The translations under genes and the position numbers were made by a program. Below are positions 4,074-17,359 of a stretch of DNA of 31,760 bases, piece after piece. The stretch lies in the IMG/VR virus record IMGVR_UViG_3300037245_003811, positions 1 to 31,760 of that record. One strand, given 5' to 3'. Each line of letters starts with the position of its first letter. Within the stretch, counting starts at the first letter, position 1. This DNA comes from a virus. The notes beneath the pieces were generated by a model that saw nothing but the letters and a program-made list of their open reading frames with translations, made no database searches and had not been told where the DNA came from.

Positions 4074-4307
4074 ATGTCATTTAAACAATTTTACACCGAG
4101 TCTATGCAACAATGGGCCGGAGACAAATTATACGATGGGTACACTTCAGTTGATAGTGGTCACGAACATCTATATGAAGTCAACGCAAGCGGAGACGGCA
4201 TTGCGTTAGCCATCAGATCAGGTGATCATCAACATAATGTGGTTGGCTGGAAAATACAAGAATCTGATGGTCATATACATAATATAAACGAAGACCAACA
4301 AACTTAA
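4074..4307 (+). CDS. Small His-rich protein with capsid-targeting-like N-terminus
   Basis: A 77-residue protein starting MSFKQFYTES. This resembles the T4 internal-protein capsid-targeting sequence MKTYQEFIAE in layout: aromatic residues, then x-E at residue 9. It would also fit a gp21 cleavage site after Glu9. Three H-x-H motifs follow (His30/32, His52/54, His67/69) at near-regular spacing. Such pairs bind metal ions in other phage proteins, for example the T4 long-fibre tip. An almost identical peptide occurs at the C-terminus of the gene at 5095. The ribosome site is AAAGGA. A role as a packaged internal protein or small metal-binding virion protein is inferred; no enzyme domain is seen. 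Confidence 0.72.
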   Translation: MSFKQFYTESMQQWAGDKLYDGYTSVDSGHEHLYEVNASGDGIALAIRSGDHQHNVVGWKIQESDGHIHNINEDQQT

Positions 4308-4318
4308 GTGGTATCAAA

Positions 4319-4762
4319 ATGGCAATAGAAAAAAGAAAACAAGAAATTGATGCAGTAATTGCCTTTATACTCTTAAAAAAGTTATTGACTCCTATCAACC
4401 AAACCGATGCTTTTAAGACAGGTGTGGTTGATGCTAAAGGTGTCGCTATGAGTGATGATAAAGAATTATCTGTACTTGATAAAATTATTTTTAAGCTAAA
4501 GCGTTTAATGGGTGGTAAGATACATGCTCTTAATAAATTTATTTATGTTAAAACTCTTGGTGGTGATTATACTCGTTATTTAATTCCTCAAGCAGGTGTA
4601 GGAAAAAGAGCCGAAGTAAAAAGATTGATGCGTGATATTGATAAGCTCAATGAAAAATATGAATTGGATGGTTTGGACGAAATGTTCGAAATGATAATAC
4701 ATGAAGAACTTCAAAAAATGACCGATTATAATGGTTATATAAAAGAAGATTATTTTAAATGA
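4319..4762 (+). CDS. Hypothetical 147-aa protein
   Basis: A complete ORF of 147 residues beginning MAIEKRKQEIDAVIAFILLKKLL. It is Lys/Glu rich and probably mostly helical, with a hydrophobic patch at about residues 12-24 that is too short and too charged at its flanks for a confident membrane segment. The C-terminus (MRDIDKLNEKYELDGLDEMF) looks amphipathic. I do not recognise the family. It lies 11 bases after the His-rich gene and just before the thioredoxin gene, in a run of small genes between the fibre and head modules, so a virion or assembly role is possible but unsupported by motifs. Confidence 0.75.
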   Translation: MAIEKRKQEIDAVIAFILLKKLLTPINQTDAFKTGVVDAKGVAMSDDKELSVLDKIIFKLKRLMGGKIHALNKFIYVKTLGGDYTRYLIPQAGVGKRAEVKRLMRDIDKLNEKYELDGLDEMFEMIIHEELQKMTDYNGYIKEDYFK

Positions 4763-4779
4763 TACTTTAGTTGGTAAAA

Positions 4780-5085
4780 ATGATAATAGAATTAGATACA
4801 AAAACATATGATAATTACATAAAAGAAAACAAACAAGTTTTGCTTGATTTTAGTGCTACATGGTGTGGTCCATGTAGAATGTCATATAAAGAATTAGAAA
4901 AATTAGATGAAAAACAAGAATCTGTTAAGATTGCGAAGATCGATATTGATAATGCGTCAGAATTAGCTGAAGCGTTTTCAGTAAGTGTGGTTCCTACAAT
5001 GATTTTAATACAAGATGGTATTGAAGTTAAAAGAACTGTGGGGGCTGTTAATCTTGCAGCACTTGAATCATTTATTAAGGATTAA
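4780..5085 (+). CDS. Thioredoxin
   Basis: A 101-residue protein with the classic thioredoxin core: LLDFSATWCGPCRM, where the redox pair is Cys29 and Cys32 (counting from the ATG at 4780), then KIDIDNASELAEAFSVSVVPTMIL with the cis-proline loop VVPT, and GAVNLAALESFI as the last helix. Length is typical of thioredoxin. The frame stays open upstream to a TTG at 4771, but the ATG at 4780 is the likelier start; neither has a strong Shine-Dalgarno. It would reduce protein disulfides in the host cytoplasm. Its place among structural genes, rather than with nucleotide metabolism, is unusual. It could supply reducing power to a reductase encoded elsewhere or act on virion proteins; the window cannot decide. 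Confidence 0.93.
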   Translation: MIIELDTKTYDNYIKENKQVLLDFSATWCGPCRMSYKELEKLDEKQESVKIAKIDIDNASELAEAFSVSVVPTMILIQDGIEVKRTVGAVNLAALESFIKD

Positions 5086-5094
5086 GGGGTATGC

Positions 5095-5445
5095 ATGTCA
5101 TCAAATATAGTTAAATCTTTTGCGGACAAAACCGGAAAATCAGTTGGTGAAGTTGAGTCTTTATGGGACAAAGCTAAATCATCTGCTCAAAAACAATTAG
5201 GTATAGATTCTGGTGATCGATTTCATCAATTGACTACGGGCATTTTAAAGAAAATGTTAAAATTAGAAGACGGAGAAGGTGGAGTAGCACCTGTCGGTCC
5301 TTCTAATACTATGTCAACAGCAAATATTGCTCCTGGTGACAGTGGTGTTTATGCAGCTAAGATTGGTAAAATAAAAAAAAGAAGAAAGACAAAAAATGAA
5401 TCTGTAGGATTTAAAGATTTTTATACTGAATCAAACCAACAATAG
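5095..5445 (+). CDS. Hypothetical protein with C-terminal capsid-targeting-like peptide
   Basis: A 116-residue protein in three parts. The N-terminal region (1-60, with KSVGEVESLWDKAK) looks like a small helical domain. A G/P/S-rich linker covers about 61-88. A basic patch KIKKRRKTK (92-100) follows, then the terminal peptide GFKDFYTESNQQ (105-116). The last element matches residues 2-13 of the protein encoded at 4074 (SFKQFYTESMQQ) at 9 of 12 positions. The start at 5095 is preceded by AAGGGG. An ATG at 5091 is in another frame and terminates quickly. I recognise no function. A basic, targeting-tagged protein upstream of the portal gene could be packaged with DNA or bind the scaffold core; this is inference. 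Confidence 0.72.
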   Translation: MSSNIVKSFADKTGKSVGEVESLWDKAKSSAQKQLGIDSGDRFHQLTTGILKKMLKLEDGEGGVAPVGPSNTMSTANIAPGDSGVYAAKIGKIKKRRKTKNESVGFKDFYTESNQQ

Positions 5446-6070: not shown

Positions 6071-7711
6071 ATGGCAGAAGGATATTTTAATCCCTTCTCG
6101 AAATTCTTTTTACGTGGAAAACCAGGTATTGAAAAGGAACGAGAAAAACAAATAAATAAAAATACCCAAGGTATTAATGATCAAGATGCATATTACAAAT
6201 ATCTCTATGGTCAGCAAAACAATGATAGTATATCTGATGGTTTTGCTAATGTTTATATTGCACCAATTCATTTCGATCAATATTTCCAACACAAAAGAAT
6301 AAGAATTCTTAAATACCGTGAAATGGCATGGTATCCAGAAATCAATGATGCACTTGATATGGTAACAGATGAAGCAATAGTTGAAGATGAGCATGGTCAA
6401 ATAATTTCTCTTAATATAAAACGAGAAGTTACAAAACTTGAACAACGTCAAATAAAAGAACAATGGGATTATGTAATTAATGATCTAATCAATGTTCAAG
6501 ATAATTTATGGGACATGTTTAGAAAATGGCTTGTAGAAGCTGAGTTGTATGTAGAATTAGTTCTTAATGATAAAAAAGATTGCGTTATTGCAGTTAGAAC
6601 TTTACCTTCATTTATAACTTATCCAGTTTTTGATGGAGCATCAATTGCATATTTCATTCAAAAAACCCAGATGGAATCTTATAATGCCGGATATCAGCAA
6701 AATGGTTCTCCTGATGATAAGCAAGCTAAACATCAAATAGTCTTTCCAAGAGAGCAAGTAGCATATGCTAATTACGGTGGTTATCCAGGAACCTCAAGAG
6801 CGGACGTTAGAGGCTATCTAGAGCCTGCTATTCGTATCTACAATATGTTGAGAGCACTGGAAGATTCGGTGGTCGTGTACAGGCTTACAAGGGCACCAGA
6901 GAGACGTGTATGGAATATTGAAGTTGGAAGAATGCCAACCGGTAAAGTTGAAGAATATATTAAAAAACTTATTCACAAATACAGAAGACAATTAAATTAC
7001 AATCCTAATACTGGTGCGGTAGATGCATCACAAAATGTTCAAGCATTGTCAGAAGATTTTTGGTTTGCTAAACGTGATGGTAACGGTACTTCAGTTGACA
7101 CTTTACCTTCTGGTTCAAATCTTGGTGAATTAGGAGATTTAGACTTTTTTAATGACAAATTACTTACAGTCTTAAAAATTCCAAAACAAAGATTTGGCGC
7201 TGGTGGTGGTGGAAGTACAAGTACTTATCAATCTGGATCAACAATTGAAAGAGATGAAATAAAATTTTGGAATTTTGTACAAAGATTACAAAAAAGATTC
7301 AAAAAAGTAATTATGGATATTTTCATCCAACAATTAAGTCTTCAAGGATTTGATCCAAAATTATGTGATAGAAAATTATATGACATAAAATTTACTGAAG
7401 CAAATTATTACAAAGAATTTAAAGAATTAGCATTATTAGAAACAAAATTAAACGTTTTCAGTTCATTATCAACATTTATTATCACTGATGAAAATCCTGA
7501 CGGAGAATTTTCATGGGAATTTGTTGCAAAACAAATGATGAATATGAATGATGATGAATATGATATGAATGAAGAATTAAAAGAGAAAGAAAGAAAAGCT
7601 TTAAAAGATAAAATAAAATTTAAAGCTGAACTTGAAAATCTGAAAGTTAAACTTGAACCAAAAGAAGATGAAAGCGGACCGGATAGCACAAATAGTGCAA
7701 CGGAAGCTTAA
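6071..7711 (+). CDS. gp20: Portal vertex protein gp20
   Basis: A 546-residue protein, close in length to T4 gp20. It forms the dodecameric portal on which the prohead assembles and through which DNA passes. Diagnostic stretches are LEDSVVVYRLTRAPERRVWN (about 267-286), followed by IEVGRMPTGKVEEYI and RRQLNYNPNTG; then EDFWFAKRDGNGTSVDTLPSG and NLGELGDLDFFNDKLL, all matching the T4 portal pattern. The C-terminal 60 residues are strongly charged (KEKERKALKDKIKFKAELEN) and probably coiled-coil. The ribosome site TGAGGA and a double late promoter lie just upstream. It heads the head-gene module (20, small acidic gene, 21, 22, 23) in T4-like order. Confidence 0.97.
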   Translation: MAEGYFNPFSKFFLRGKPGIEKEREKQINKNTQGINDQDAYYKYLYGQQNNDSISDGFANVYIAPIHFDQYFQHKRIRILKYREMAWYPEINDALDMVTDEAIVEDEHGQIISLNIKREVTKLEQRQIKEQWDYVINDLINVQDNLWDMFRKWLVEAELYVELVLNDKKDCVIAVRTLPSFITYPVFDGASIAYFIQKTQMESYNAGYQQNGSPDDKQAKHQIVFPREQVAYANYGGYPGTSRADVRGYLEPAIRIYNMLRALEDSVVVYRLTRAPERRVWNIEVGRMPTGKVEEYIKKLIHKYRRQLNYNPNTGAVDASQNVQALSEDFWFAKRDGNGTSVDTLPSGSNLGELGDLDFFNDKLLTVLKIPKQRFGAGGGGSTSTYQSGSTIERDEIKFWNFVQRLQKRFKKVIMDIFIQQLSLQGFDPKLCDRKLYDIKFTEANYYKEFKELALLETKLNVFSSLSTFIITDENPDGEFSWEFVAKQMMNMNDDEYDMNEELKEKERKALKDKIKFKAELENLKVKLEPKEDESGPDSTNSATEA

Positions 7712-8123: not shown

Positions 8124-8762
8124 ATGAAATTAATTACTGAATATGTTGATTACAATGATTTAGAAATTATTACTGAATCTGATGGTGATGGCAAAAAAAC
8201 ATTAAAAATTAAAGGTCCATTTTTAGGTGCTGAAATAAAGAACCGAAATGGTCGTGTTTACCCTCGTGAGTTAATCGAAAGAGAAGTAGAGAGATATACT
8301 AAAGATAAAATAAACAAAGGAAGATCAATGGGTGAGTTAGACCACCCACCAGTTCCTCAGCTTAATTTAGATAGAGTAAGTCATCTAATAGAATCATTAA
8401 CGATGGATGGTAATCAAGCGATTGGAGTAGCTAAAATATTAGATACACCAATGGGTAATATTGCTAAATCATTAATAGAATCAGGCGTAAATCTTGGCAC
8501 AAGTTCTCGTGGCGTAGGAACGCTTAAAGGACACACTGTCAATTCTGATTTCAAACTAATCACGGTTGATATCGTTGGAGAACCAAGTTATCAACAAGCT
8601 TATGTTGAAGGTATTCTCGAAAATAAAGAATACATAATTCAAGGCAATAGCATAGTAGAAGTTGCTGTTAATAATTTCCAAAGAAGTTTAGATAGAAAGG
8701 GTTCTTCAATTATAAAAGAAGCCTTAGACGAATTTTTAACAGAATTACGAACAAATTTATAA
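8124..8762 (+). CDS. gp21: Prohead core protease gp21
   Basis: A 212-residue protein matching T4 gp21 in length and motifs. The core is FLGAEIKNRNGRVYPRELIE (34-52), then GELDHPP with catalytic His74, then GTSSRGVGTL with the catalytic serine most likely Ser127, the first of the pair. This serine protease is built into the prohead and cleaves scaffold, capsid and internal proteins after glutamate, then degrades itself. The N-terminus contains LITE (3-6) and IITES (15-19), and the C-terminus EFLTELR, all plausible self-cleavage sites. They agree with the FMTE/A site in gp23 of this phage. It has its own late promoter and precedes the small helical gene and scaffold gp22. Confidence 0.95.
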   Translation: MKLITEYVDYNDLEIITESDGDGKKTLKIKGPFLGAEIKNRNGRVYPRELIEREVERYTKDKINKGRSMGELDHPPVPQLNLDRVSHLIESLTMDGNQAIGVAKILDTPMGNIAKSLIESGVNLGTSSRGVGTLKGHTVNSDFKLITVDIVGEPSYQQAYVEGILENKEYIIQGNSIVEVAVNNFQRSLDRKGSSIIKEALDEFLTELRTNL

Positions 8763-8773
8763 AGGAGTACAAT

Positions 8774-9040
8774 ATGGATGTATTAGACGGTGCAAACCAT
8801 TTTCTTACTGATAGTTACAGTGGTTTAGATAAACAAAATGAAGAAGCTAAAGCAGAAAGACTTAAAGAATATTTAGCTGAAGAAGCAAAAACAATTGAAG
8901 CAGCAAAAAATCGTGTTGAAGCAGATACGAGTTTTATGGTAGAAACAGCATCAAATATTTTAGTAAAAGATGAAGGATCAATGTTAAAAAGATCTTCTCT
9001 TGAGGCTGGTATTTTTGGTGATGCTGATAAATATCTATAA
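8774..9040 (+). CDS. Small helical protein between gp21 and gp22
   Basis: An 88-residue protein with a long charged, coiled-coil-like stretch at about residues 19-50 (QNEEAKAERLKEYLAEEAKT and onward) and a less charged C-terminus (SLEAGIFGDADKYL). The ribosome site AAAGGAG lies 11 bases after gp21. T4 has no gene between 21 and 22. Its location within the prohead core module, small size and helical character make it a candidate extra core/scaffold component; SFMVET (around 53-58) is a possible protease site. Function is not recognised from sequence. Confidence 0.75.
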   Translation: MDVLDGANHFLTDSYSGLDKQNEEAKAERLKEYLAEEAKTIEAAKNRVEADTSFMVETASNILVKDEGSMLKRSSLEAGIFGDADKYL

Positions 9041-9063
9041 TAATATTTTTTCAAGAGCTTAAT

Positions 9064-9071
9064 TATAAATA
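9064..9071 (+). promoter_or_regulatory. Late promoter for gp22
   Basis: An exact TATAAATA 41 bases before the gp22 ATG, followed by a strong ribosome site TTAGGAGG. Confidence 0.78.
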
Positions 9072-9104
9072 TTCATATCTAAACAGAGATTTAGGAGGAT
9101 TAAA

Positions 9105-9947
9105 ATGAGTAAAATGGATAACATTTTAAAAAAATTACAAGATGTTTTATCAGAAGAAGATGTTAAATCTTTCCAAACAGACGTTTTAACTTTAATAGAA
9201 GAAAAAGTTTCAATTAAAGTAGACACTGAAAAAGAAAAGGTTGAACAACTTGCTGAAAAATATTGTGATATGAAAATTCAGGAAGGCATTAAGAAAATCG
9301 CTGAAAAGTTAATAATTGAATATGATGGAAAATTAGATCAATTAGAAACTACTTTAGTTGAAAAACTTGACAAATTTCTTGATCTAGAAATCACATCAAA
9401 AATTTCTAATGACACATTAAAACAAATAGCGGTTAATGAAACATATGGCCCTATCATAGACGGTATTCAATCATTATTTGAGCACCAACATGTAGCATTG
9501 GATAGTGATGGTTATGCATCATTAAGAAAGTATCAAGATAAAATTGGTGAATTACACGATCAATTAGCAGAATCTATAGCCGACAAAATTGAGTTAGAAG
9601 AATCTGTTGAAGTTGCAGCAACTAAACTATTAATTGCTAAACAAACTGATCATTTAACAGAAAGTGAAAAATCAAAAGTTTTCGAATTTTTTGATGGAAA
9701 ATCACTTACTGAAACTCAATCGAAGATTGAGAATTTTATCGAGTTGATAACAGATAAAGCAGAAGCTGTTACAATTAAAGAAAATTCTTCAACTAGTGTT
9801 ATTAGTGAAGGTGTAGCAGGTGCTATATCTGATGATAATTATATCGCTGAAGAACAAACTATAAATGTTAAAGATAAAGATAAAGAACTAGAAGAAGGTA
9901 TTAATAGTCAATATGACCTACTTAATGCTGCTAATAGATTTATCTAA
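9105..9947 (+). CDS. gp22: Prohead scaffolding core protein gp22
   Basis: A 280-residue protein, close to T4 gp22 in size, almost wholly charged and helical (LIEEKVSIKVDTEKEKVEQL and following heptad-like repeats). It fits the major scaffold that fills the prohead and is later destroyed. Several [L/I]-x-E sites fit gp21 cleavage: HLTES (183-187), SLTET (200-204), VISEG (232-236) and YIAEE (246-250). The end, NSQYDLLNAANRFI, looks like a conserved gp22-type terminus. It has its own late promoter and a very strong Shine-Dalgarno, in line with high expression, and lies directly before gp23. Confidence 0.88.
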   Translation: MSKMDNILKKLQDVLSEEDVKSFQTDVLTLIEEKVSIKVDTEKEKVEQLAEKYCDMKIQEGIKKIAEKLIIEYDGKLDQLETTLVEKLDKFLDLEITSKISNDTLKQIAVNETYGPIIDGIQSLFEHQHVALDSDGYASLRKYQDKIGELHDQLAESIADKIELEESVEVAATKLLIAKQTDHLTESEKSKVFEFFDGKSLTETQSKIENFIELITDKAEAVTIKENSSTSVISEGVAGAISDDNYIAEEQTINVKDKDKELEEGINSQYDLLNAANRFI

Positions 9948-10007: not shown

Positions 10008-11333
10008 ATGTATAATACACCTGATAAAGCAAAGCTAGTTCAAAAGTGGGAAAATGTTCCTGGTAAATTATCGATTGCCGATATAGAGGATAGAGATGTT
10101 AAAGAAAACATGGCTACCCTTCTTGAGAACCAACAACACAAAAATTTTAGTGACGGTAACGCCTTTAATTTTATGACTGAAGCGTCACAAGCTTCAAACA
10201 CAATAAGCACATCAACTCTTAACGATCCAAATGGTGGTCAATTCAGACCTATGACACTTGCTCTTGTTAGAAGAACTTTTCCAGTTCTATTCGCTAACAA
10301 AGTTGTAGGTGTTCAGGCTATGAGTACTCCTGTTGGACTTGCTTATGCATTGAGATTCTTATACAAAGATTATCCAGATAATGAAGCAGCATTTAACGAT
10401 GTAGCAAAATTCTCAGGTTTTACTGGTAATGAGCCTCAAGCAGCTGGTGGAGCAATCCCTGGCGTTCCTAACCCTAACGCAGTTCCTGGCCTTGATACTT
10501 CTGGTATTACATCAGCTATCGATACTGGTACAGGTGCACCTTCGGTTTCAGGTGAAGCTTTCCAATTTGGTGGAACTGGTACAGAAAAAATGCCAGAACT
10601 GTCATTCAGAGTTGACCAGACTTCAGTTGTAGCACAAACTAGAAAAATGGCAGCAAGCTTCTCTCTAGAATCAGCACAGGACATCAAAGCGATGCACGGT
10701 GTGGACATCGAAAGAGAAATGTTAAGCGTACTTCAGTATGAAATAATGGCTGAGCTTGACAGAGAGCTTCTACAAAGAATGAAAGTAGCTGCTGTAACTA
10801 TCTCTTATGGTGGAGAAGCTGTAACAAATATTGACGTTACTGCATCTAACCCACTTGATGGAAGATGGTCACAAGAAAGATATGCTGGAATTGTAACTTC
10901 TATTATCAAAAAAGCTAACGACATTGCGATCTCTACAAGACGTGGTGCTGGTAACTTTGTGATAGTATCTGGAAGAGTTGCAACTGCGCTTCAAGCTGCA
11001 GGGCCACAATTCTCTAGAAACACAGCTCTTGTTGATAATACTACTACTCTTGCAGAAGTAGGAACTATCAATGGAACTATCAAAGTTTACAGAGATTCTT
11101 ATGCTATTAATGACTACGCACTTATTGGTTATAAAGGACCAGGTATTAGTGACTCAGGAATTATCTTTAGTCCATATATTACTGGTGTAACCAACAGAAC
11201 TGTAGCGCAGGACGACTTTAGTCCAAGACTAGGAGTTATGTCTAGATATGGTGTTACTGATACCCTTTTAGGATCAGGAAGATACTATAGACTGATTAAC
11301 TACCAGAATCTTGCGACAATCGTTCCTGGTTAA
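10008..11333 (+). CDS. gp23: Major capsid protein gp23
   Basis: A 441-residue protein, about 80 shorter than T4 gp23. The N-terminal propeptide (1-58) ends with NFMTE followed by ASQAS, the expected gp21 cleavage point after Glu58, equivalent in place to the T4 site near residue 65. Conserved capsid stretches follow: FRPMTLALVRRTFPVLFANK (77-96), VGVQAMSTPVGLAYALRF, MPELSFRVDQTSVVAQTRKM, SFSLESAQDIKAMHGVDIE, and near the end SPYITGVTNRTVAQDDFSPR and LGVMSRYGVTDTLLGSGRYY. A G/P/A-rich segment at about 146-180 probably corresponds to a variable insertion. It is flanked by its own promoter and a strong terminator. No vertex gp24 paralogue is seen in the window. Confidence 0.97.
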   Translation: MYNTPDKAKLVQKWENVPGKLSIADIEDRDVKENMATLLENQQHKNFSDGNAFNFMTEASQASNTISTSTLNDPNGGQFRPMTLALVRRTFPVLFANKVVGVQAMSTPVGLAYALRFLYKDYPDNEAAFNDVAKFSGFTGNEPQAAGGAIPGVPNPNAVPGLDTSGITSAIDTGTGAPSVSGEAFQFGGTGTEKMPELSFRVDQTSVVAQTRKMAASFSLESAQDIKAMHGVDIEREMLSVLQYEIMAELDRELLQRMKVAAVTISYGGEAVTNIDVTASNPLDGRWSQERYAGIVTSIIKKANDIAISTRRGAGNFVIVSGRVATALQAAGPQFSRNTALVDNTTTLAEVGTINGTIKVYRDSYAINDYALIGYKGPGISDSGIIFSPYITGVTNRTVAQDDFSPRLGVMSRYGVTDTLLGSGRYYRLINYQNLATIVPG

Positions 11334-11424: not shown

Positions 11425-11889
11425 ATGTCTTTTAGTTCTTTTTATTATGTTGAGGGAAAAGATGATGAGTTTGATGTTGTTGATGACGATCAAGTTTATA
11501 TTGACCAGAATTTCGATCTTGAAGTAGACGATGTTCTTAAAAAAGATCTTGATGGTGAAGACGATGAAGAAGATGATAAAGAAGATTTAACAGAAGCTAA
11601 AACATCTCGTCAAAAAAGACAATCTGCAAGATCAAAACGTAGTGCTATCAATAAAGCAACTAAAGGTCAGTTTTATAAATCTTCATTAAAGTCGAGAGCT
11701 AAATTTTTATCAAGATATGAATTTAAACAAGTTACTCCAACATCCGGTATCTTTCTACCAAGAAAAAAACCATTACCTCAGCTAAAAGTATATAGACGTT
11801 TAAGAAAAGCTTCTAAAGTTCTAAAAAAATTCAGTAGAATTAGAACTAAAGGGAAACAATCTAAAAGAAGAACTAAAGGTAAATTTTAA
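11425..11889 (+). CDS. Charge-split protein: acidic propeptide plus very basic body, candidate internal DNA-binding protein
   Basis: A 154-residue protein with two opposite halves. Residues 1-57 begin MSFSSFYYVE (like the capsid-targeting-type starts elsewhere in this window) and hold about 25 acidic residues, ending DKEDLTE. Residues 58-154 begin AKTSRQKRQSARSKRS and hold about 35 Lys/Arg and a single acidic residue, ending SKRRTKGKF. DLTE before Ala58 fits the gp21 cleavage pattern seen in gp23 (FMTE/A). This suggests that the acidic half targets and neutralises the protein in the prohead and is then cut off, leaving a DNA-binding protein inside the capsid. It has its own late promoter right after gp23. 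It is not obviously homologous to T4 IPI-III. The function is inference from charge and motif. Confidence 0.72.
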   Translation: MSFSSFYYVEGKDDEFDVVDDDQVYIDQNFDLEVDDVLKKDLDGEDDEEDDKEDLTEAKTSRQKRQSARSKRSAINKATKGQFYKSSLKSRAKFLSRYEFKQVTPTSGIFLPRKKPLPQLKVYRRLRKASKVLKKFSRIRTKGKQSKRRTKGKF

Positions 11890-15420: not shown

Positions 15421-15753
15421 ATGAAATTTAAGACATTTTATCAATTAGATACAAAAGAACAAGAAATCTTCGAAGACGTTTTTAATAATTATTATCAAAA
15501 AGGATATTTTGGTGATATTGATCGAGAAGAAATAAAAACAAATCAACAAGAATGGTTTGAAAAGTTTAATCATTTCATAAAAGAAAAAAATGCAAACGAA
15601 TTGGCTTTAGCTTTAGCTAATAAAGAGAATAAGTTATCACGAGAATGGTTTACTCAGATAACGGAATTGAATGTACGGTATAAAACGAAAGAAAAAATTC
15701 TCGAAATAATAAAAGAATATGTGAATAAGACACGTTTAGAATTGAGGGAATGA
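15421..15753 (+). CDS. Hypothetical protein between terminase subunits
   Basis: A 110-residue, highly charged, probably all-helical protein. It begins MKFKTFYQLDTKEQEIFEDV; MKFKTFY recalls the MSFKQFY start of the gene at 4074, though the TE after it is missing. The rest (QEWFEKFNHFIKEKNANELA and the end KILEIIKEYVNKTRLELRE) shows no known motif. It starts two bases after the gp16 stop and ends one base before the gp17 ATG, so it is tightly coupled with both terminase genes. A packaging accessory role is suggested only by this linkage. Confidence 0.75.
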   Translation: MKFKTFYQLDTKEQEIFEDVFNNYYQKGYFGDIDREEIKTNQQEWFEKFNHFIKEKNANELALALANKENKLSREWFTQITELNVRYKTKEKILEIIKEYVNKTRLELRE

Positions 15754-15754
15754 T

Positions 15755-17359
15755 ATGTTTAATAACGATCCTGCTTTAAGATCTGCCGGACAGAAAGTAA
15801 AAATGACTCCTGTACAAGTTGACCAATTTGTAAGAGCATCAGAGGATTTGTTATATTTTGCTGAAAACTTCTTTGAAATCGTCACGATTGATGAGGGTAA
15901 ACAAAAAATTGTTCTTCATGAATATCAAAAGAGAGTTTTAAAAGCATTTGTAGGTGGTGATGAAGATAAAAGAAAACATAATATATTGTTATCATCAAGA
16001 CAGATTGGTAAAACTACCTTAGCAGGAATTTACATTTTATGGTATGCATTATTCCAGGAAACTAAAGAAATTGCTATTCTCGCAAATAGAGAAAAAACAG
16101 CAATGGGAATTCTTAGAAGAATAAAAGATGCTTATCATGAATTACCATTATTTTTACAACAAGGAATTGTTGATTGGTCTAAAACTACTGTTACATTTGA
16201 GAATGGTTCAAGAATAATTTGTGGATCTACATCTTCATCTTCATTCAGAGGTGAATCTATAGCGTTATTATATCTTGACGAATTTGCATTTGTACCTTCA
16301 CATGTTGGTGAATCATTCATCAGATCTGTGTTCCCTACTATTTCATCTGGTCAAACTTCAAAAATAATTATTTCATCTACTCCTAATGGAATGGGTCCCT
16401 TTTATCATTTATACCGTGAAGCGGTTAAAAATGAAAATAACTTTAGACCAATTAAAGTAAACTGGTGGGAAGTTCCTGGTAGAGATGAAGAGTGGAAAGA
16501 AGCAATGATTCGTGATATTGGAGCAATAAGTTTCAATCAGGAATATGGGGCAGTTTTCTTAGGATCGTCAAACACATTGATTGATGGTAATTTATTAGAA
16601 CGATTAGGTACTTATACAAAAGAACCACTTCAGTTGATGTATGGTCATTTAATGAAAGTTTATGAACCTCCTGAACCAGATGGATTCTACATATTAGGTG
16701 TAGATTCAGCAAAAGGTACGGGAAATGATTATTCAGTAATTCAAATATTAAAAATTGTTGATCAATATGAAATATATCAGGTAGCAGTTTATAGAAATAA
16801 TGTCATTTCCGCTCATGAATTTGCACAAACTGTTATTGGTATATCAGAATTATATAATAATGCTTATGTAATGTTAGAAAACAATGATGTTGGTGGTGAA
16901 GTAGCTCAAGCAATGTTTTGGGAATACGAATTTGAGAATATTCTTAATTGTGATAAAGACGGAATAGGAATACGGTCTACTAAAAAATCAAAATTGGCTG
17001 GAAATATATTATTAAAACGATATGTTGAATCAAGTTGGCTTCACATTTATGATAAACGTACTCATTTTGAATTATCTGTATATGAAGAAACTGCTCAAAA
17101 TATATTTAAAGCCGGTGGAAATGAACATGATGATTGTGTTTTATCTATGATGTGGGGATTATACTTCCTTGCAACTGAATTTTTTGACGGAAAGGATATG
17201 TCAAAGAAAACTATTGAAGAAAAATTCAGATTAAAAGAAAGAGTAGAAGAGGAAGAACCAGTAATTATTACAGATACTTCTCCTATTGCCGATGCAGATG
17301 GGTTTGACTGGTCAAACGCAACTCCTGATGAAGATACCGATAAAAATCATTTTTCTTAA
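15755..17359 (+). CDS. gp17: Terminase large subunit gp17
   Basis: A 534-residue packaging motor and nuclease. ATPase motifs: LHEYQKRVL (54-62, adenine/Q-type region), Walker A SSRQIGKTT (80-88), Walker B LLYLDEFAF (171-179, with catalytic Glu176), and coupling motif SSTPNG (207-212). The RNase H-like nuclease has acidic residues in GVDSAKGTGNDYS (Asp317), MLENNDVGG (Glu375) and NEHDDCVLS (Asp459/460), the same three-acid layout as T4 gp17. The C-terminus is an acidic tail with DSSPIAD-like composition. It is about 75 residues shorter than T4 gp17. It cuts concatemeric DNA and pumps it through the portal. Confidence 0.97.
   Translation: MFNNDPALRSAGQKVKMTPVQVDQFVRASEDLLYFAENFFEIVTIDEGKQKIVLHEYQKRVLKAFVGGDEDKRKHNILLSSRQIGKTTLAGIYILWYALFQETKEIAILANREKTAMGILRRIKDAYHELPLFLQQGIVDWSKTTVTFENGSRIICGSTSSSSFRGESIALLYLDEFAFVPSHVGESFIRSVFPTISSGQTSKIIISSTPNGMGPFYHLYREAVKNENNFRPIKVNWWEVPGRDEEWKEAMIRDIGAISFNQEYGAVFLGSSNTLIDGNLLERLGTYTKEPLQLMYGHLMKVYEPPEPDGFYILGVDSAKGTGNDYSVIQILKIVDQYEIYQVAVYRNNVISAHEFAQTVIGISELYNNAYVMLENNDVGGEVAQAMFWEYEFENILNCDKDGIGIRSTKKSKLAGNILLKRYVESSWLHIYDKRTHFELSVYEETAQNIFKAGGNEHDDCVLSMMWGLYFLATEFFDGKDMSKKTIEEKFRLKERVEEEEPVIITDTSPIADADGFDWSNATPDEDTDKNHFS

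Follow-up and report, generated by a model that had tools for sequence, protein, structure and literature searches.

The window analysed here, a stretch of 31,760 nucleotides of viral DNA, is the head-tail block of a T4-like phage. It carries a gp2-like DNA end protector (5452), a gene at 6071 that from its position and sequence we take to be the portal gp20, the gp21 prohead protease (8124..8762, plus strand; Peptidase S77, PF03420, 3.2e-26), a gp22-type head scaffolding protein (9105..9947, plus strand; phrog_237, 7.8e-11), the gp23 major capsid protein (10008..11333, plus strand), a head-tail adaptor (12813) and, at 15755, what is presumably the large terminase, again judged from position and sequence. 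The nearest known relatives are the IMG/VR contigs L001 (211 kb), L002 and L003, with 90% identity in gp23, and cultured relatives are far (gp23 identity below 60%). PADLOC returned no matches. L001 has a second terminase-like ORF (15830-16609), shorter than the large terminase gene and located immediately in front of it, and L002 has a similar ORF (8362-9123); the window has none.

Two small genes of this block, both on the plus strand, share a short peptide. The first (4074..4307, starting MSFKQFYTESMQQ) encodes a 77-residue protein in which an N-terminal tag is followed by a His-rich body with a weak resemblance to YmaF (PF12788, E=0.002, below cut-off); the tag, SFKQFYTESMQQ (4077..4112, residues 2-13), is like a capsid-targeting sequence (CTS) and has a predicted cut at FYTE|S. 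The second (5095..5445, ending ...KNESVGFKDFYTESNQQ-stop) encodes a 116-residue protein composed of a three-helix domain (5095..5271, KSFADKTGKSVGEVESLWDKAK...GILKKML), a low-confidence, disordered linker with a Lys/Arg-rich stretch and KNES at its end (5272..5406) and, as its last 12 residues directly before the stop, the C-terminal tag GFKDFYTESNQQ (5407..5442). A thioredoxin gene (4771-5085) lies between the tagged genes and is itself without a tag. The two peptides are identical at 9 of 12 positions, and the sequence-only reading that first drew attention to them was correct in both their location and this count. Among any two of the 41 ORFs of the window, called mechanically as the longest non-overlapping ones, this pair is the top 12-residue match; when the termini were compared in 200 protein shuffles, the maximum was 8 identities, reached once, and 9 never occurred. 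The third codon position differs in four of the nine shared residues (TAC/TAT, ACC/ACT, GAG/GAA and TCT/TCA), so that different codons are indeed present, if somewhat fewer than the "many" third-position differences originally described.

Orthologues of gene 4074 are present in L001 (4369-4602) and L003 (80-313), and no relatives were found among cultured phages. Comparison of the window with L001 revealed 11 synonymous and 0 nonsynonymous changes in the first 28 codons, against 13 synonymous and 14 nonsynonymous changes in the remainder; by this measure the N-terminal tag is under strong purifying selection. In T4, head entry requires no more of IPIII than its first 10 residues (MKTYQEFIAE); residues 4 and 7 target the protein, processing depends on residues 8 and 10, and the gp21 cut falls after L/I-x-E (PMC9026906). 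The 4074 peptide lies at the extreme N-terminus (residues 2-13), as a T4-type CTS requires, and its aromatic residues F3 and F6 are three apart, as are T4 CTS residues 4 and 7. The CTS of IPI-IPIII (MKTYQEFIAE|A) and the 4074 tag are both N-terminal and share aromatic-x-x-aromatic-hydrophobic-x-Glu with the same spacing, so that the resemblance to MKTYQEFIAE noticed earlier extends to the four experimentally important positions. The context is also the same, with an S77 protease and a gp22-type core or scaffold present in both phages. The two differ in that FKQFYTE|S, compared with YQEFIAE|A, has Phe first and Tyr before x-Glu, and in that the window peptide also occurs at a C-terminus, that of 5095. 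P1 DarB, whose first 30 residues are sufficient for head packaging and which belongs to a set of Dar proteins with no consensus (PMC9024508), is similar in having an N-terminal signal for entry into the head of a myovirus, and different in that its signal is described only at the N-terminus. Our preferred reading of protein 4074 is a small internal head protein whose targeting propeptide is of the T4 type; it would be packaged and cleaved.

The sequence-only reading had proposed a search of related phages for such peptides near either terminus. Of 1556 proteins encoded by related loci, 20 carry the strict motif [FYW][KRQ]x[FYW][LIVMFY]xE at residues 2-6, versus 0.4 in shuffles; this is about 23 times the rate in protein interiors, and the small proteins concerned belong to about 10 unrelated families, so the N-terminal half of that proposal was borne out. 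Glu falls exactly two residues past the N-terminal core in 43% of cases versus 8% in interiors, which agrees with what a cut site requires. Tagged N-termini per genome, counted with a looser motif than in the 1556-protein scan, numbered 22 in G003 (1.5 expected), 6 in phiKT1024 (1.2 expected), 6 in G002 (1.1 expected), 4 in G001, which is kin to the window (1.1 expected), and 4 in T4 (0.9 expected), where IPII, IPIII and gp61.1 are among them; KVP40 had 2, S-SSM7 had 1, and HTVC008M, RM378 and SPO1 had 0. No S77 protease was found in SPO1, and all other genomes of this count have one, including the tagless HTVC008M. Searching viral contigs for M-K-x-F-K-[EQ]-F-[LI]-x-E yielded at least 120 matching stretches, versus 22 when the residues of the pattern were scrambled, and the tagged proteins formed at least 23 groups. 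Of 29 tagged contigs with a length of about 20 kb or more, 13 had S77, versus 0 of 8 scrambled-pattern contigs; its absence from a contig says little because the contigs are mostly fragments. At the level of sequence, the N-terminal enrichment proves that a signal is shared, rather than what the signal does. We found no literature quoting MKTYQEF or MKTFKEF; the CTS literature found concerns T4, giant phages and P1, and none was found on such tags in marine T4-like phages.

Several tagged genes in other genomes are of separate interest. Among the 22 of G003 (L176-L186), three lie consecutively at 90.8-91.5 kb, with a fourth directly after, and the same genome encodes two tagged ATPase-like proteins (54719-56191 and 134762-135637). 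In G001 (143076-144221; L072), three consecutive genes open with the tag-like peptides MNFKDFYS, MSFFEFLNE and MSFRQFFYE, and the body of the last is related to 4074. In Vibrio phage phiKT1024, the products of 161431-161949 and 162362-162727 open MKFKQFLAES and MKFKEYLNEL. Uncultured phages (L255, L307, L311) encode a tagged lytic transglycosylase, a tagged glucosaminidase and a tagged, weakly phospholipase A2-like protein.

The C-terminal tag of 5095 likewise has aromatic residues three apart (F106 and F109). Structure prediction gave three helices with moderate confidence for the domain (mean pLDDT 67.8) and placed the tag inside a low-confidence tail; the fold had no PDB relatives at E<=0.001. 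The domain is common to T4-like and other large phages, where it is sometimes fused to larger domains, and among cultured phages its relatives were limited to three from Vibrio, with more distant ones in phages of Erwinia, Xanthomonas and Achromobacter. The 5095 orthologues of L001 and L003 end KNESIDLIESYGKNDI and have lost the tag, with no hidden tag in other frames of the L001 gene; the sequence-only reading had counted lack of the peptide in orthologues against its own case, and part of that lack is seen here, for 5095 in these two relatives. The 4074 tag is kept in both. Diverged 5095 homologues nonetheless carry it: SYKNFLKEEKLK (L089), TFKEYIERTKGE (L091), ALSFKEFLDQSKSE (L112), SFREYLNQIEN (Vibrio phage phiKT1024, 36870-37088), SYKNFQNLLDI (L097), SFWEWLENDEV (L095) and EWRKFLKKYA (L028). 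The tag core occurs in 8 of 17 non-redundant tails of the family (up to 65 residues) versus 0.28 in shuffles, and two more families with short tails came from a subsequent scan; in one, the protein ends TFKDFLMLEQGVK (L399/L400). Of the 19 short-tailed members, 9 have a core that ends 4-7 residues from the stop, versus 0.8% of other proteins, a count whose binomial value overstates the case because the members are kin. The Glu is missing from most of these C-terminal tags. Outside the 5095 family, the C-terminal half of the proposed search gave 1 protein versus 0.9 expected (1556 proteins, related loci), so a general C-terminal tag on all proteins was rejected and the enrichment is confined to this family.

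Some C-terminally tagged fragments show no S77, these contigs being incomplete. Motura has a 5095-type domain with no tag after it in the part read, PhiXhv-15 has one with no tag in the 190 residues read, and neither gave an S77 match; these two cases are consistent with a link between tag and protease. The back-end form in distant relatives suggests from sequence that the signal can sit at either end. Of the original idea of a tag that works at either end, the N-terminal part is supported and the C-terminal part more weakly so, with the tag lacking in L001 and L003 and retained in diverged homologues. For the 5095 protein, the likeliest reading is the same docking signal in a C-terminal position; its peptide does not have the N-terminal location of a CTS and, although it may work like one, we do not file it as one.

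Candidate cleavage sites elsewhere in the window were compared with the tags. gp21 has a candidate N-terminal self-cut, EIITE|SDG, at codon 18, and gp23 a candidate propeptide cut, FNFMTE|ASQ, at codon 58, the place corresponding to SFLTE|A of T4 gp23; the TE|[AS] of the candidate gp23 site recurs in the tags. Both tags read Y-T-E, with Glu in the CTS position and, at P3, a Tyr that lies outside the T4 L/I-x-E rule. The M-T-E and I-T-E candidate sites of the same genome suggest that P3 may be wider than L/I, and together with the FYTE|S tags they agree with a shared protease specificity. The residue after Glu was small in 44% versus 36%, a slight bias that was rejected as proof of cleavage because it is too weak. 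In 5095, only SNQQ would be lost by a cut after FYTE; the tag would stay in place and the protein would not be released. Release would need an upstream cut, for which KNE|S is no more than a candidate; this KNES is kept in L001. In T4, gp21 processes both ends of Alt (ITE-6 and LTE-619), and the authors left open what the C-terminal propeptide of Alt does (PMC5694885). Alt serves as a precedent in that processing signals occur at the two ends of a head protein; it differs in that it loses 63 C-terminal residues, whereas the 5095 tag is the last 12 and would not be removed by a cut after its Glu. The Alt C-terminal propeptide contains FASFV, which may be chance.

Taken together, we consider it fairly probable that SFKQFYTE|S of 4074 is a T4-type capsid-targeting propeptide and that in 5095 GFKDFYTES provides this docking signal from a C-terminus. 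From these data we infer docking on gp22, packaging, cleavage and a C-terminal function, as follows. Through its two aromatic residues, the 4074 tag would attach the protein to the gp22 core while the prohead assembles, the gp22-type scaffold of the window (9105..9947) being the presumed partner; the shell would close around the docked protein; gp21 would cut after the Glu; and the mature protein would stay in the head and leave with the DNA. In 5095, the docking signal would sit behind the three-helix domain at the end of a disordered, Lys-rich tail and would target without release by a cut after its Glu, any release coming from an upstream cut such as KNE|S.

An alternative, which we regard as unlikely, is that only the N-terminal form targets and that in the 5095 family the C-terminal peptide has no function and is left over from a fusion: a three-helix gene would have fused to the front of an N-terminally tagged protein, the rest of which was then lost, leaving domain and tag. 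Longer members with the core directly after the 5095-type domain and then further sequence do exist. In L122 (4001-5056) the domain is followed by SFKQYITESK and a cytidylyltransferase-like enzyme (PF01467), in L124 (4001-4720) by RFKDYIIEED and a weak Acb1 (anti-CBASS) match (E=0.0024, below the Pfam cut-off), and in L137 by the core and then other sequence. An unfused FGRFNPP-type protein in S-SSM7 (160865-162247) opens with an N-terminal MKSFGQFLTEA, and L001 has lost its 5095 tag. All of this fits a remnant; decay, however, would not preserve the placement seen in 9 of the 19 diverged, short-tailed members, where the core ends 4-7 residues from the stop and often follows a Lys-rich linker. 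Less probable still is that the peptide is a binding helix for some other partner (tail, neck, baseplate or a host protein) rather than a head signal. Tail-fibre-like genes precede 4074, and the wall-active enzymes among the tagged proteins elsewhere (lytic transglycosylase, glucosaminidase) could be tail proteins. However, the tag agrees with the T4 CTS at each of the four positions tested in the latter, Glu included, the same motif recovers T4 IPII and IPIII, and it is absent from SPO1, a large myovirus without S77. Chance or a recent, functionless local copy is very improbable, for although the peptide is short, phage genes shuffle pieces and the L001 orthologue of 5095 lacks the tag, both the shuffles, which never reached 9 of 12, and the codons, which differ in four of the nine shared residues and in the 4074 tag have changed without altering an amino acid in two relatives, led us to reject it, and the recurrence of the peptide in distant families, at C-termini too, contradicts it.

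If it is a targeting signal, the tag would be a sequence-only predictor of which phage proteins of unknown function ride in the head and are injected. The set of proteins that T4 carries in its head and injects includes anti-defence proteins and a host-modifying enzyme. More tentatively, and with doubts outweighing confidence, we propose that in many T4-like phages, mostly uncultured, one short tag placed N-terminally, C-terminally or between domains serves to load the head with dozens of small proteins and enzymes that are unrelated to one another, and that the 5095 domain is the tag's portable companion, joined to different cargo. The C-terminal form, if true, would also bear on what C-terminal propeptides do, a question raised for T4 Alt.

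Two further openings in the window had been singled out as weaker forms of the tag. The 154-residue protein at 11425..11889 (plus strand), with an acidic front and a basic back, opens MSFSSFYYVE, and its L001 orthologue opens MSFGSFYFIE, so that the core is kept. The 110-residue protein at 15421..15753 (plus strand), which adjoins the large terminase gene, begins with MKFKTFYQLD; the aromatic core [FL]xxFY persists in its homologues, most of which lack the Glu, and this opening is probably not the same signal. The 147-residue product of 4319..4762 (plus strand), of the phrog_18642/phrog_2086 family, ends in DYNGYIKEDYFK (4724..4759), with a core, YNGYI, 6 residues before the stop. This is a possible second C-terminal tag, whose aromatic-x-x-aromatic-hydrophobic core is conserved only in L001 and L003 and not in distant homologues. 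T4 gp61.1 (54 residues; NC_000866 18966-19130, minus strand; L234:367-531) opens with the CTS-like MKTFKEFIKED, and no evidence of its packaging was found in the literature searched; phrog_2086 matches its tail and is also weakly related to the 4319 protein. Gene 4319 lies between 4074 and 5095, and its C-terminal core had gone unmentioned in the sequence-only reading.
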